Of a DNA stretch of 64,000 nt, positions 26,301 to 33,554 are shown piece by piece. The notes under the pieces are model-generated. The model worked only from the letters and a program-made list of their open reading frames with translations. It ran no database searches and was not told where the DNA came from. Source of the DNA: an uncultured Cryomorphaceae bacterium. Its GTDB lineage: Bacteria; Bacteroidota; Bacteroidia; Flavobacteriales; Schleiferiaceae. Location of the stretch: positions 1 to 64,000 of the forward strand of contig CAJWFD010000003.1 of the NCBI GenBank assembly GCA_913031435.1, read 5' to 3'. Every line of letters begins with the position of its first letter. The first letter of the stretch is position 1. The translations under genes and the position numbers were made by a program.

Positions 26301-26761
26301 CGTTTATTATTGAGGAGTTAACGGAATTAGTCGAAGAAGCCGTTTTATTAGAATTTGATAGAATTACAGAAAGAGGCGGAGTATTGGGTGCTATGGAAAC
26401 CATGTACCAGAGAGGAAAAATACAAGAGGAAAGCTTATATTATGAAACACTTAAGCATACCGGAGAATTTCCGATTATTGGTGTAAACACATTTTTAAGT
26501 AAAAATGGTTCGCCTACGGTCACTCCAGACGAGGTGATACGTGCTACTGTAGTGGAAAAAGAGTATCAAATAACGATGCTCGAAGCTTTGCAAAACAGTA
26601 ATTCTGATCGCTCAGAAGGTATGTTAATTGCATTGAAAGAGGCCGCGGTGAAAAACGACAATATTTTTGAACTAATGATGGAGGCCTCGAAGTATTGTTC
26701 CCTTGGACAAATTACAGATGCCTTATTCTCAGTGGGTGGTCAATATAGAAGAAACATGTAA
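23399..26761 (+). CDS. icmF: Fused isobutyryl-CoA mutase/GTPase IcmF
   Basis: A 1120-residue three-part protein. The N-terminal B12-binding domain has DGHDAAIN, with the cobalt-coordinating His, and a GGGGG turn. A MeaB-like GTPase chaperone follows (P-loop GTGGSGKSS near 200-210; base recognition NKFD). A methylmalonyl-CoA-mutase-like TIM barrel covers about 530-1120. That order on one chain defines IcmF, which interconverts isobutyryl-CoA and butyryl-CoA using adenosylcobalamin while the GTPase handles cofactor loading. Methylmalonyl-CoA mutase proper has no built-in GTPase. The ATG at 23399 is preferred over an upstream TTG. It overlaps xth by one base (TAATG). Confidence 0.93.
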
Positions 26762-27522
26762 TGAAAATACTATCCTTTAACGTTAATGGAGTTCGTGCTT
26801 GCGCAGGAAAAACACTTCTTCAAGATCTTAACAGCTTAGACTGCGATGTAGTCTGTCTTCAAGAGACAAAAGCTACGCCTGACCAAGTTGCGGAGGCACT
26901 TTCGGGACTAACTGGTTATCACTTGTATGCCTATAGTGCTGATAAGAAGGGATATAGCGGTACAGCTATCCTGTCTAAAGAGCTCCCTTTGTCCGTGAAA
27001 ATGGGACTAGGCATCGTGGAACACGATAATGAGGGAAGGGTGATAACCGCCGAATTTCAAGATTACTTTGTTGTTACCGCTTACGTTCCTAATTCGAGCA
27101 GTGGTTTAAAGCGCCTTGAGTACAGAACTAAGGATTGGGATGTAGCGTTTTTAGCGTATTTAAAGGATTTAGAACGCTCAAAGCCTGTAGTGGTGTGTGG
27201 AGACTTAAATGTTGCCCATCAGCCGATTGATCTTAAAAACCCAAAGCCAAACTATAATAAAACTCCAGGCTATACTCAGCTTGAAATAGATGGCCTCACA
27301 ACAATGCTAAATAGCGGTTTAGTAGATACATATCGCCACCTAAATCCAACTACAGTTAAGTACAGTTGGTGGAGTTATAGAGGAGGTTCAAGAGAAAGGA
27401 ATGTAGGTTGGAGGCTTGATTATTTCCTAGTAAGCGAGTCACTTATGGTAAAGGTCAAGAATAGTGAAATATTAAATAATATCCTGGGTAGTGACCATTG
27501 TCCGGTACTATTAAGCATGTGA
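26761..27522 (+). CDS. xth: Exodeoxyribonuclease III
   Basis: A 253-residue EEP-fold nuclease with the exonuclease III motif set: LSFNVNGVRA, CLQETKA (metal-binding Glu), CGDLNVAH, the YRGGSRERNVGWRLDYFL region, and GSDHCPV at the C-terminus (catalytic Asp-His). It cleaves abasic sites and removes 3' blocking groups in base excision repair. It is the second gene of the icmF pair through the TAATG overlap, a pairing with no obvious metabolic link. Confidence 0.95.
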   Translation: MKILSFNVNGVRACAGKTLLQDLNSLDCDVVCLQETKATPDQVAEALSGLTGYHLYAYSADKKGYSGTAILSKELPLSVKMGLGIVEHDNEGRVITAEFQDYFVVTAYVPNSSSGLKRLEYRTKDWDVAFLAYLKDLERSKPVVVCGDLNVAHQPIDLKNPKPNYNKTPGYTQLEIDGLTTMLNSGLVDTYRHLNPTTVKYSWWSYRGGSRERNVGWRLDYFLVSESLMVKVKNSEILNNILGSDHCPVLLSM

Positions 27523-27523
27523 T

Positions 27524-27709
27524 TTAGTCGTCCACGGGCTTAAAATCCAGCAGTAGGCCGCCGGCTTGTTTCAACTCTCTGTTGATTACATTGAATCTTT
27601 CGACGTGTTTTCCTGCAGGTGATAATGAGATAACTTCAACTTGCAGTGCTGCTGCGGTGAGGTGGTTATTCACATCATGCATAAGTTTCTGATACTGTTT
27701 TAAGTCCAT
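27524..27709 (-). CDS. Lone histidine-kinase H-box (DHp-like) small protein, 61 aa
   Basis: The 61-residue product consists of two predicted helices. The first holds LMHDVNNHLTAA, which fits the H-box H-D/E-x-N-N-x-L-T of histidine kinases (phosphoacceptor would be His11). The second (VERFNVINRELKQAGGLL) fits the partner helix of a dimerisation/phosphotransfer domain. No ATP-binding domain, sensor or receiver follows. It lies 17 bp downstream of the M1 peptidase gene on the same strand and one base from the convergent xth stop. It could be a phosphotransfer relay, a decoy dimeriser, or a remnant of a kinase. Identification rests on motif reading only. Confidence 0.6.
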   Translation of the reverse strand: MDLKQYQKLMHDVNNHLTAAALQVEVISLSPAGKHVERFNVINRELKQAGGLLLDFKPVDD

Positions 27710-27726: not shown

Positions 27727-30126
27727 TTAGCGTAAGATGCTAATAGACCTAGATAGGTCGTTGATTCGTATGGTGTATACTCCGTTGGGAATGGTTTTGA
27801 TTGATAATTCTACGGAACCCTTGTTGACAGTTAAAATTCTCGATAGCGCCAGTACCCCATTCGTTTCAAATATTTGTACACTAGCGACATTTAATCCAGA
27901 TTGAAAACCATCTATTTTTAAGAGGTCCTGACTTGGGTTGGGATATATTCTAATTGGATTCTCCGATGCGTCCTCCATGCTAAGACCGTATTTGGCTTTA
28001 CCAATTCGATAAAAACCACTGAGTAACTGTGGGGTGAAAGACAAATTACCAACTCCAAAGTTCCCCACGGTTTGGTTCGTCACATTACTTAATGCAATAC
28101 CTGCACTAGGAAGCTCACCAGTTTTAAAATGACACAGTGTGAGTGAATCTCCCGAAATACTTGAGAGATCGTAATCAAGACCGCCTTGGGTTTGATTTTT
28201 ATTGTATTTGATCGTTACTTCAAAGGGTAGGGTCGTGGTGGTTGCCAGCGGTGGGTCATGGCTTCCTTCATACCCTATAAAGTATACGTGGTTAGACCCG
28301 ATTTCACCAGAGCCACTATACATGCCTTCAGTGCGATGGTGCCAGACATAGAACCTTCCGTTGAGGTTGTTTGGATTGCCCGTCGGAGTGATTTTCACCC
28401 CCGTATTTGTTAAGGTTTTAGTGCCTGATAATTCCGACCATTCAAAAGAATCATAGACAGAGGTTCCTAAAGACTCTGCACTGTCATTAATACTCAGCCA
28501 ATCTGCACCGCCTTGGAGATCTTGTATTCCCTGATAATTAGGGGAAAAATCACCAGAATACCCTAAAAAAACTTTACCCTGGTAGCCTGAATTATAGCTG
28601 TGTTTATAAAGCCATATTGGTGTTGATTTTCCCTGTGCAGATGCTCCATTGGGAATATTGCTCTGAATACGATGTAGTCTAATTGGTTGCTGTCCTGCAG
28701 TAAATGAGGTTTTTTTATGCGGTATAATGCCGTGGTATCCTGGCGTATAAATCCAATCCAACCAAAATTCGGTTAGGCTTGTTCCGGTAGCATTCTCTAA
28801 CGTTTGCTTGAAACTATCGACATCATAGTTTCCATACGTCTTTAGCGCAATGAGTTGTTTGATGCCATGTGAGAATAGCGAATCTCCAAGATATTCTCTT
28901 AAGTTATGCGCTACCATAGCGCCTTTTTGATACGTGTGCATGCCGTAAGTTTGATCCTGATTGACGCCACTTAACGAAAGATGACCTCCATCGCTTAAAG
29001 CAGCCTGTTTTAGTACGACTCCTTGATTTTTTTGTACGGTGCTGACATATTTCGATCGGCCATAGATCTTTTCCTCATAAAAGTGTGACCCAAACTCAGC
29101 GAATCCTTCGTTAATCCACATGTCTTGTGCCGTTGAGGTGGTGATTGCATTACCGAACCACATATGGGCAAGCTCATGTGCTATGATGTCTTCTCCGTTC
29201 AGATTTATATTGGCTAATGATCGTGGTAAATGAATCATTCCGGCATGCTCCATGGCGCCTGTAATGGTAAGCGCGTAACCTACTTTTTCGAAGGGGTACG
29301 GGCCGAACTCATGAACAAATGCATCGTATATATCATTTAAATGAACAAATCCGGCAGTCATATTGGCCGTGTCTTGCGTTCTGCCATAAATCTCAAATGG
29401 TATACCTCCATGGCTCCAACTCTGTTTTTGATAGTCAGAAACTGCGATACTTACTAGGTAAGAGGGTAAGGGTGCTTGGCCTTTCCAATGCCACACTAAA
29501 TCTCCTGTAATCAGGGTATCTACGGTGCTTAGAATACCGTTACTTACACCAACATTACTACTTGAGGTGGTAATGTTCATTTCTTCTAGAACGCATTTTT
29601 CAACAAAATTATCAAAGCAAGGGAAAACACTTCGTCCGTAAACATGAGGATTCGCAGCGAAACCAACACCTAAATTATAGTCATAGGCGCCGTCATGATG
29701 CATGCCGCCCCATCCACTGGCATCTTTAGTGGTTGCCCCGTGATAGTAGATGGTCCAATTCAATGAATCTCCTGCCAGCGCAGTATCTGAAACAATGAGA
29801 TGCTCACCAGACTGGTGGAACACTAAGGGGTCATTTATGGAGATCACACTATCCACGGTAAATCCAAGGAGATCGAAGCGTAGTTGTGTGAAATTTATGA
29901 TTACATCTATTTGATATTCAGCCTTCCCTATAAGCTGAGCGTTATCAAAACCCCTTGCATCGACATCAAGTTTTAACGATGTAAGATTGGCTGTATCTGA
30001 CCTTGAATTATAGTTGATTGGTGTGGTTGATTGGTAAACAGGCGCAAACTTGTTGTTTTGACAATTGAACTGTCCATTCACCGCAAGGTTAGTCAGCATT
30101 AGTAAAGCAAGTGCAACTTGTTTCAT
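27727..30126 (-). CDS. M1 family metallopeptidase with T9SS sorting domain
   Basis: A 799-residue secreted peptidase starting at ATG 30126, whose signal peptide is MKQVALALLMLTNLAVNG; an open 19-codon extension is discarded. The M1 catalytic core has the substrate-amine motif written GAMEH instead of the common GxMEN, the zinc site HELAHMWFG, and the third ligand in NEGFAEF, 18 residues on. A beta-rich region follows, and a T9SS type A domain (IRIYPNPSQDLLKIDGF) ends the protein. It should cleave N-terminal residues from peptides outside the cell or at the surface. It starts 4 bp after rlmB. Confidence 0.9.
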   Translation of the reverse strand: MKQVALALLMLTNLAVNGQFNCQNNKFAPVYQSTTPINYNSRSDTANLTSLKLDVDARGFDNAQLIGKAEYQIDVIINFTQLRFDLLGFTVDSVISINDPLVFHQSGEHLIVSDTALAGDSLNWTIYYHGATTKDASGWGGMHHDGAYDYNLGVGFAANPHVYGRSVFPCFDNFVEKCVLEEMNITTSSSNVGVSNGILSTVDTLITGDLVWHWKGQAPLPSYLVSIAVSDYQKQSWSHGGIPFEIYGRTQDTANMTAGFVHLNDIYDAFVHEFGPYPFEKVGYALTITGAMEHAGMIHLPRSLANINLNGEDIIAHELAHMWFGNAITTSTAQDMWINEGFAEFGSHFYEEKIYGRSKYVSTVQKNQGVVLKQAALSDGGHLSLSGVNQDQTYGMHTYQKGAMVAHNLREYLGDSLFSHGIKQLIALKTYGNYDVDSFKQTLENATGTSLTEFWLDWIYTPGYHGIIPHKKTSFTAGQQPIRLHRIQSNIPNGASAQGKSTPIWLYKHSYNSGYQGKVFLGYSGDFSPNYQGIQDLQGGADWLSINDSAESLGTSVYDSFEWSELSGTKTLTNTGVKITPTGNPNNLNGRFYVWHHRTEGMYSGSGEIGSNHVYFIGYEGSHDPPLATTTTLPFEVTIKYNKNQTQGGLDYDLSSISGDSLTLCHFKTGELPSAGIALSNVTNQTVGNFGVGNLSFTPQLLSGFYRIGKAKYGLSMEDASENPIRIYPNPSQDLLKIDGFQSGLNVASVQIFETNGVLALSRILTVNKGSVELSIKTIPNGVYTIRINDLSRSISILR

Positions 30127-30130
30127 CTTT

Positions 30131-30868
30131 CTAAGCTTTTCTTTGGCGTACCGCCTCATAAAGTAGCACACCTGTAGCGACACTAACGTTCAGTGAATTG
30201 ATCTGCCCGGACATAGGAATTAAGGCTTGGGCATCAGAAAGTTGAATTAAACTCTTGTGCACACCTGTTTCTTCGTTTCCCATGATTAACATACAGCCCT
30301 CTTTAAATGGAGCGGCATACATGTCTGTTTCTGTTTTCTCTGTAGCTGCAACTACTTTTAATCCCAAGCTTTGTGCTACAAACAAAGCATCTTTCATATG
30401 AGCGACTTTACACACTGGCACTTCAAGAAGCGCACCCGTTGAGGTTCTAATCGCATCAGCACTGACCGGCGCACTGTCGTTCTTCGGAATCACAATAGCG
30501 TCAACCCCGCAGCAATCAGCTGTCCGCGCGATGGCTCCAAAATTTCTTACATCGGTAATTCTGTCAAGTGCTAGAATTAATGGCACCCTCCCTTGTTCTT
30601 GAGCAGCAACTATGATTTCCTCTAAATCAAAAAAGTCAATAGGGCTTAGGTAAGCAACAGCACCTTGATGATTTCCTCTGGTAACTCTGTCAAGTTTCTC
30701 TACCGGAACATATTTAGGTTCAATACCAGCATCTCTGAGTGTACCTTCAAGTTGAGCGTACAAAGATCCACTAAGTCCCTTTTGAAGGAATACTTTTTCA
30801 ATGGTTTGGTTGTCTTGAACTGCCTGAAGAATAGGACGTAGTCCGTATATAAGTTGATCGTTTGTCAT
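30131..30868 (-). CDS. rlmB: 23S rRNA (guanosine-2'-O)-methyltransferase RlmB
   Basis: A 245-residue SPOUT-class enzyme. The small N-terminal substrate-binding domain (IYGLRPILQAV) is followed by the trefoil-knot methyltransferase domain: ALDRITDVRNFGAIARTA, IRTSTGALLEVPV, LIMGNEETGV and IPMSGQINSLNVSVATGV. The family methylates the ribose of G2251 in 23S rRNA; the TrmH group is related, so the exact nucleotide is inferred. Only 2 bp separate it from rmuC. Confidence 0.9.
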   Translation of the reverse strand: MTNDQLIYGLRPILQAVQDNQTIEKVFLQKGLSGSLYAQLEGTLRDAGIEPKYVPVEKLDRVTRGNHQGAVAYLSPIDFFDLEEIIVAAQEQGRVPLILALDRITDVRNFGAIARTADCCGVDAIVIPKNDSAPVSADAIRTSTGALLEVPVCKVAHMKDALFVAQSLGLKVVAATEKTETDMYAAPFKEGCMLIMGNEETGVHKSLIQLSDAQALIPMSGQINSLNVSVATGVLLYEAVRQRKA

Positions 30869-33073: not shown

Positions 33074-33193
33074 ATGAAAAAGGTATTATCCATTGCCGTT
33101 GTGATCGTTGCAACCCTCGCAATCACTTCTTGTGGCACTGCCGAAAAATGTCCATCTTATTCTCATGTTGAGCTTCCTACGCAACAAGGATAA
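33074..33193 (+). CDS. 39-residue lipoprotein
   Basis: The short frame encodes MKKVLSIAVVIVATLAITSC then 19 residues (GTAEKCPSYSHVELPTQQG). A positively charged N-terminus, a hydrophobic stretch and the lipobox ITSC with Cys20 predict an SPII-processed lipoprotein of 20 mature residues. A second cysteine in KCPSY lies just after. Its last 29 bp overlap ytxJ in another frame, so the two are probably cotranscribed. The role is unknown; similar short lipoproteins with a Cys-x-x-Tyr segment recur in Flavobacteriia to my recollection. Confidence 0.65.
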   Translation: MKKVLSIAVVIVATLAITSCGTAEKCPSYSHVELPTQQG

Positions 33194-33554
33194 GAACCAG
33201 GAGTCCAAAGTTGGACTTCCTTTTTTATACCCGCAATCCTTCGAGGAATTGGCGGGTATTCTTCGTTATAAAGGGACTACTTTTATATACAAGCATAGCA
33301 CGAGGTGCAGTGTAAGTCTATTCGCGATGAAACGACTCCTAATGACTGAGGTGGAAGAACGGGAACAGTGGGTGTACATAGATGTTGTTGCTCAAAGACC
33401 TCTTTCTTTGGCCTTAGCTGAGGATTTAAAGGTTGAACATCAAAGTCCACAGTTGATCGTAATTAAAGAAGGAAAAGTTCACGCACACGCATCCCACCAG
33501 GGCGTAAATGAAGATACAATTGATATTTGGCGCAAAAGCTTAGCTGAAGCGTGA
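33165..33554 (+). CDS. ytxJ: Bacillithiol-system redox-active protein YtxJ
   Basis: The 129-residue thioredoxin-fold protein has the YtxJ signature: a single-cysteine active site in FIYKHSTRCSVSLFAMKRL, followed by the cis-proline strand HQSPQLIVIKEGKVHAHASH. YtxJ-type bacilliredoxins remove bacillithiol from S-bacillithiolated proteins. The ATG at 33165 gives MLSFLRNKD; a TTG 19 codons earlier opens the frame but reads through the lipoprotein gene. It overlaps that lipoprotein by 29 bp and is 30 bp before lipA. A bacillithiol transferase-like gene lies in the same direction at 37653. Confidence 0.87.
   Translation: MLSFLRNKDKNQESKVGLPFLYPQSFEELAGILRYKGTTFIYKHSTRCSVSLFAMKRLLMTEVEEREQWVYIDVVAQRPLSLALAEDLKVEHQSPQLIVIKEGKVHAHASHQGVNEDTIDIWRKSLAEA

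Follow-up and report, generated by a model that had tools for sequence, protein, structure and literature searches.

A free-standing HisKA-like hairpin protein, probably derived from a histidine kinase, encoded between xth and the gene of a secreted M1 peptidase in part of a genus of Schleiferiaceae

The window considered here, the whole stretch of 64,000 nucleotides that was analysed, belongs to an uncultured Cryomorphaceae bacterium whose assembly, 90.6% complete, totals 1.83 Mb over 66 contigs. It contains a small gene fitted closely between two larger ones.

26761..27522, plus strand: exonuclease III-like gene xth (Exo_endo_phos in Pfam), convergent with the small gene and adjoining it in all member genomes.
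27524..27709, minus strand: ORF of a 61-aa DHp-like protein with an ATG start; predicted helix 1 is residues 3-28 and predicted helix 2 residues 33-54.
27656..27679, minus strand: H-box HDVNNHLT, residues 11-18, with the His11 codon at 27677-27679.
27727..30183, minus strand: M1-family metallopeptidase gene (Peptidase_M1 and Por_Secre_tail in Pfam), upstream of the small gene and adjoining it in all member genomes.

The product of the small ORF is MDLKQYQKLMHDVNNHLTAAALQVEVISLSPAGKHVERFNVINRELKQAGGLLLDFKPVDD (61 aa), and its sequence is as the initial annotation had described it. The gene starts 17 bp past the stop codon of the M1 peptidase gene on the same strand, and its own stop codon lies 1 bp from that of the convergent xth. 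According to Pfam the peptidase C-terminus is a type IX secretion sorting tail, and because Peptidase_M1 and Por_Secre_tail domains are both present in the upstream ORF, the earlier placement of the small gene downstream of a secreted peptidase is a fitting one. Residues H11, D12, N15, L17 and T18 of the small protein all fall within helix 1; Asn15 is at H+4 and His16 at H+5, where 45/45 of the genus kinases that were read carry Pro. A genome-wide profile search of the source genome (G000) gave eight Response_reg matches (E <= 0.01) and five HisKA matches, all of them on other contigs, so that the window is without a response regulator, as had been claimed, and neither a kinase nor a regulator gene is adjacent to the small gene. 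An apparently divergent single-domain regulator, encoded by a frame of 126 aa that matches the receiver domain weakly (44.7 bits; G000:C32:18599-18931, L078), is a candidate partner of the small protein. Scans of Rfam, terminators and promoters around the small gene returned nothing useful. Elsewhere in the window, 33108-33554 on the plus strand encodes a protein strongly matching the monothiol bacilliredoxin BrxC (PF11009, E 2e-24).

A family profile search of the genus, which was sampled as 25 partly incomplete genomes, found seven intact copies in six genomes, the source included (61 aa in the window, 72-75 aa in the six others). All seven occupy one slot, following the secreted M1 peptidase gene and facing the convergent xth, so the intact orthologues and the synteny in relatives for which the initial annotation had proposed to look were both present. 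Two of the copies (L022 and L023) come from one assembled genome, G011, on contigs that share 99.85% identity along 16,171 bp, and this double copy is probably strain redundancy in the bin and not duplication. Alignment of the seven copies revealed 19 invariant columns, including H11, D12, V13, N15, H16, L17, T18, L22 and Q23, with 7/8 columns invariant in the H-box compared with 12/50 elsewhere (p = 0.001); His11, whose invariance had been put forward as a check, is identical in 7/7 copies. Among the cross-genome pairs, the six whose dS was below 1.5 gave dN/dS values from 0.05 to 0.18, a range that leaves out the G011a-G011b pair (one nonsynonymous and no synonymous change), and synonymous change was significantly in excess in each of the four pairs tested (p = 4e-10 to 2e-5). 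The proposed dN/dS check therefore revealed purifying selection in the family, whereas all comparisons with the window's own copy in G000 were saturated and yielded no dN/dS for it. For the window's copy the evidence lies in its intact frame and preserved H-box. It is the most diverged of the copies (36-43% identical to the others), with a C-terminus 11-14 residues shorter, and it keeps 7/8 H-box residues as against the majority residue at only 18/50 other columns (p = 0.009). The divergence, the short C-terminus and the saturation speak for the remains of a decayed kinase or for a spurious ORF, and decay had indeed been suggested at the outset; for the family it is contradicted by purifying selection and by 7/7 intact copies, and in the window's copy the selective retention of the H-box speaks against it. 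With the invariant H-box, the dN/dS values and the synonymous excess, a chance ORF or decay is rejected for the family and is very improbable altogether, and the family is almost certainly a real conserved gene.

The 19 other genomes include 14 in which the small gene is absent and the stop codons of the peptidase and xth genes are 0-24 bp apart, while the remaining five are uninformative (four have no xth match and one has xth at a contig edge). A tree of the xth protein (20 rows) placed the member genomes all on one side of a single branch (96/99; bootstrap not fully settled). When ten outgroup sequences were added, G000 branched first, then G011/G012/G003 and then G009 and G007, with the 13 rows without the small gene branching last (100/99); support for the genus was only 85/79 in this rooted tree, whose long outgroup branches drew a warning from the program, and both trees leave out the fragments from G018 and G002. 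The branching order of the outgroup-rooted tree is most simply explained by a small gene already present in the ancestor of the genus and by a single loss. It is absent in one clade and therefore dispensable, and because the peptidase persists in the 14 genomes in which the small gene is absent, the link between the two is positional only.

Attempts to find the stand-alone form more widely, by searches of 100 relatives and with profiles at the family, order and class levels, did not find it outside the genus. A single-sequence search of the 100 relatives matched eight at E <= 0.1, and the two of these that lie outside the genus were rejected, one match (E 0.014) being inside a 603-aa frame and the other (E 0.033) in a frame with three stops. 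Profile searches matched 9/88 genomes at the family level, 10/395 at the order level and 13/395 at the class level, and the extra-genus matches lay in frames of 480-1255 aa apart from four short or broken ones. Two short matches in G194 covering profile columns 21-53 and 21-46 only, a short match in G503 whose frame is interrupted by a stop, and a 64-aa frame in G772 with HDVLNHL and no further likeness to the family were all taken as chance. A scan of named genomes yielded nothing with the single sequence and six loci with the alignment, all on contigs already known from the genus, and viral contigs contained no match to the small protein. The order peptidase, small gene, xth was not seen at 30 xth loci of other genera (some of them parsed badly), where a 79-aa frame with HDCKNH ~1 kb away (L111) was also taken as chance.

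Pfam HisKA (PF00512) is the sole Pfam family matched by 7/7 copies (best E 2.4e-5), over about columns 9-57 and with the numbering of model and protein in step. Bit scores, which cover six of the seven copies, are all under the Pfam gathering cut-off of 26.9 bits (12.6 for the window's copy and 16.6-21.8 for five others), and in two of these six copies rival families score as well or better: PF20835 has 12.9 bits in the window's copy as against 12.6 for HisKA, and REX1B (21.9) and DUF4315 (19.0) compare with 17.9 for HisKA in the L006 copy. These rivals are surely unrelated. The initial description of a HisKA-like phosphoacceptor hairpin thus holds in that every copy matches HisKA and falls short in that the six scored copies miss the cut-off; similar proteins may be overlooked elsewhere because members score below it. 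The His, acidic H+1 and Asn/Thr at H+4 that mark the HisKA H-box are present as H11, D12 and N15 in 7/7 copies. The two-helix hairpin of HisKA is predicted in the single-chain AlphaFold models of two members, with helices 3-28 and 33-54 in the window's copy (pLDDT 83.6), in line with the fold suggested earlier, and helices 3-30 and 33-71 in one orthologue (pLDDT 86.0). Foldseek found no significant match for the modelled hairpin, and its better rows include DHp chains (the GacS/RetS complex, the EnvZ DHp and other kinases) among many unrelated hairpins, a mixture that is to be expected because the fold is so simple. Matches were only weak in NCBIfam (a sensor-kinase family for 5/7 copies, best E 0.0091) and in PHROGs (two), and among PDB sequences the best was a designed bundle (E 0.074) and the second Sporulation kinase B (E 0.18), aligned His on His. 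It is also clear that nothing else is attached to the hairpin, as had been stated from the start: none of the seven copies, at 61-75 aa, contains the HATPase domain of a histidine kinase, and no room is left after helix 2 for a C-terminal ATPase-like domain of the Spo0B/ChpT type. What is present corresponds to the HisKA-type module without HATPase or receiver of a split kinase, with a sub-threshold HisKA match, and the small protein is probably DHp-derived.

The class names NtrY, NtrX, PhoR and RprX used for the kinases and regulators compared here are presumptive, having been assigned from sequence features. The nine long frames that were inspected (L017, L018, L019, L049, L148, L149, L151, L153 and L155) all show an H-box. 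Within the order, the best long matches of the family profile were the four NtrY-like kinases L017, L018, L019 and L049 (E 5.6e-5 to 0.007), and the four best extra-genus matches of the order search were NtrY-like kinases; the H-box flanks of L148, L153 and L155 differ from the NtrY-like ones. Local hhalign of the family profile against the kinase classes of the genus found the NtrY-like class nearest (E 2.4e-6), followed by the PhoR-like (2.4e-3) and RprX-like (2.5e-3) classes, one orphan kinase (2.9e-3) and a class of 387 aa (2.6e-2), the NtrY alignment spanning columns 7-27 of both profiles, 21 columns only, with His on His. The DHp sets held 11 sequences in each of the four classes plus the orphan kinase (45 in total); the NtrY, RprX and 387-aa sets were chosen by ORF length from an ATPase search, the PhoR set consists of the loci which that search returned, and four of five 'misc' kinases were dropped as having no H-box by the pattern used. 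An hhalign value of 1.4e-10 to NtrY-like kinases of other genera is partly circular, because the family profile itself found those kinases. A caveat is that in the class-wide search L148, with its other H-box flanks, scored 24.0 bits (E 1.5e-4), about as much as L017, the best NtrY-like kinase, at 24.8 bits. Descent from NtrY is not secure because the alignment is so short and L148-type kinases score as well class-wide, and the class-wide kinase matches and the better-scoring unrelated families together weaken the NtrY link.

NtrY-like kinases of Flavobacteriales share H-[ED]-x-K-N-x-L-T with the family, including Asn at H+4, Thr at H+7 and Leu at H+11, but they are whole kinases with open frames of 474-542 aa, an ATPase domain and Pro at H+5. 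If the phospho-His of EnvZ is taken to be residue 243, its T250, L254 and A255 correspond to H+7, +11 and +12. These three positions are reported to switch partner choice between EnvZ and RstB (PMC2991266). They read T, L, Q in the family (7/7) and T, L, T/S in the NtrY-like class (11/11), whereas the PhoR-like (F, G, Y), RprX-like (A, L, A) and 387-aa (S, G, W) classes differ from the family at two or three of them. At H+3, G000 has lost Lys both from the small protein (Asn) and from its NtrY-like kinase (Thr; L082, contig C13), and four other member genomes in which NtrY was read keep it in both. This joint loss, seen in one lineage, is only suggestive of a link between the small protein and NtrY. 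Lys is found at H+3 in the 10 other NtrY-like genus kinases read, and because six of these come from genomes without the small gene, the Lys of NtrY is independent of the small protein. Among the regulator matches listed (without G009), frames of 388-401 aa, judged NtrX-type by sequence in G000 only, occur both with and without the small gene, and no partner stands out.

The reading tentatively preferred here is that of a DHp-only protein of kinase descent which would act in trans, its target being a kinase or regulator whose gene lies elsewhere in the genome. The bare hairpin, most likely descended from an NtrY-type HisKA kinase, would dimerise into a four-helix bundle, and His11 would receive its phosphate through the ATPase domain of one of the resident kinases, with the NtrY-like kinase as the first candidate, or alternatively by back-transfer from a phosphorylated regulator. 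Phosphate would be exchanged with a response regulator, the first candidate being the NtrX-like regulator on contig C2, in the manner of Spo0B, ChpT and split kinases; we infer both the partner and the direction of phosphate flow. A study by Willett and Kirby found that in the four HisKA kinases tested kinase activity, but not phosphatase activity, depended on the acidic H+1 residue, and that the H+4 Asn/Thr was required for phosphatase but not for kinase activity (PMC3510030). The invariance of Asp12 and Asn15 suggests that phosphate chemistry is used, and since both residues are kept, the best reading is a trans phosphotransfer module with possible phosphatase activity. Counting against it are the sub-threshold HisKA scores, the Foldseek result without a significant match, the want of an adjacent regulator gene, the dispensability in one clade and, by analogy with CrdS, the His at H+5 in 7/7 copies. 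Spo0B, likewise, is not known to have Pro at H+5. Replacement of that Pro by Ala in CrdS (P376A) is reported to leave kinase activity at ~30-50% with a large decrease in phosphatase activity, and six phosphatase-defective CrdS mutants, P376A included, had near wild-type phosphotransfer (PMC3510030). Phosphotransfer is favoured in the balance because P376A mutants keep it while the H+5 Pro is His in every copy; that the small protein works by phosphotransfer in trans is credible, if short of probable. The most specific version, a DHp hairpin alone (61-75 aa), split off from an NtrY-type kinase and serving, with His at H+5, as an exchange point in trans between kinase and regulator, is doubtful as a whole.

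Three further explanations bear on the same observations. The hairpin could be a decoy: by pairing into mixed dimers with one of the resident kinases, in the first place the NtrY-like one, it would block or modulate the autophosphorylation of that kinase, and His11 itself would not have to be phosphorylated. In keeping with this, the NtrY-like DHp is nearest to the family among genus kinases, and the H+3 Lys has been lost from both proteins in G000 but kept in both in four other member genomes. RetS, for its part, is reported to inhibit GacS partly through a block of autophosphorylation (PMC5992135). It is not obvious, however, why a pure decoy would require the invariant His11, Asp12 and Asn15, and the H+3 coincidence is one lineage deep, with Lys also present in six NtrY-like kinases from genomes without the small gene, which leaves this explanation unlikely. 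Still less likely is a regulator phosphatase or phosphate sink, in which the unphosphorylated hairpin would dephosphorylate a response regulator in trans through Asn15. Asp12 is invariant although it would be unneeded for phosphatase activity, and the Pro at H+5, the site of the large phosphatase decrease in CrdS P376A, is missing (PMC3510030); on the other side stand the HDxxN of 7/7 copies, the requirement of HisKA phosphatases for Asn/Thr at H+4 (PMC3510030) and the account of RetS, with its degenerate ATPase domain, as a transmitter phosphatase (PMC5992135).

The third explanation puts the hairpin outside two-component signalling altogether, for example with an adaptor or chaperone role towards the peptidase or in its export, and with a convergent likeness to the H-box. 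Compatible with this are profile scores that stay under the threshold and are accompanied by those of other families, structure matches interspersed with numerous unrelated hairpins, and a secreted peptidase as the same-strand neighbour in all members, but conservation peaks in the H-box (7/8 columns against 12/50), HisKA alone among Pfam families matches 7/7 copies, the four best extra-genus matches of the family and order searches are NtrY-like kinases and the peptidase is retained in 14 genomes without the small gene, so that convergence too is rather improbable.

HisKA proteins that lack the ATPase domain have been described before, and the small protein preferred here as a kinase-derived DHp hairpin is therefore a minimal variant, not a new kind. 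The studied split pair CheA3-CheA4 reportedly uses a CheA-type P1 domain and not HisKA. One survey counted 1556/42417 HisKA proteins without HATPase, 711 of these with HE/DxxN/T, and these proteins and split kinases likewise have a phosphotransfer module without the ATPase domain (PMC3591291), whereas the small protein is the hairpin alone and has no adjacent partner gene. A class of 'stand-alone HisKA or Hpt' proteins appears in an Azospirillum genome survey, with one HisKA case in four strains (PMC4618731). A literature search of partial coverage found no DHp-only or HisKA-only family of such size. Sda, a small helical hairpin inhibitor of KinA that is not known to have an H-box, offers a likeness as a tiny helical hairpin in kinase control. 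Spo0B has a degenerate ATPase-like domain. RetS, unable to autophosphorylate and yet able to dephosphorylate GacS, is an example of a HisKA protein that controls another kinase while having no autokinase activity of its own and that has kept HExxT, but it retains a degenerate HATPase and has receiver domains (PMC5992135). ChpT and Spo0B also transfer phosphate from dimeric helical hairpins and do not autophosphorylate (PMC3433190, PMC11210211), and ChpT differs in its C-terminal ATPase-like domain (PMC3433190). A protein of 61-75 aa in a genome with eight detected receivers would provide a test object for split-kinase models (ultrasensitivity, phosphatase activity on the free form), and since ChpT and Spo0B, the best-studied kinase-like phosphotransferases, keep an ATPase-like domain, a conserved hairpin-only family would demonstrate how small a part of a kinase is enough for signalling in cells.
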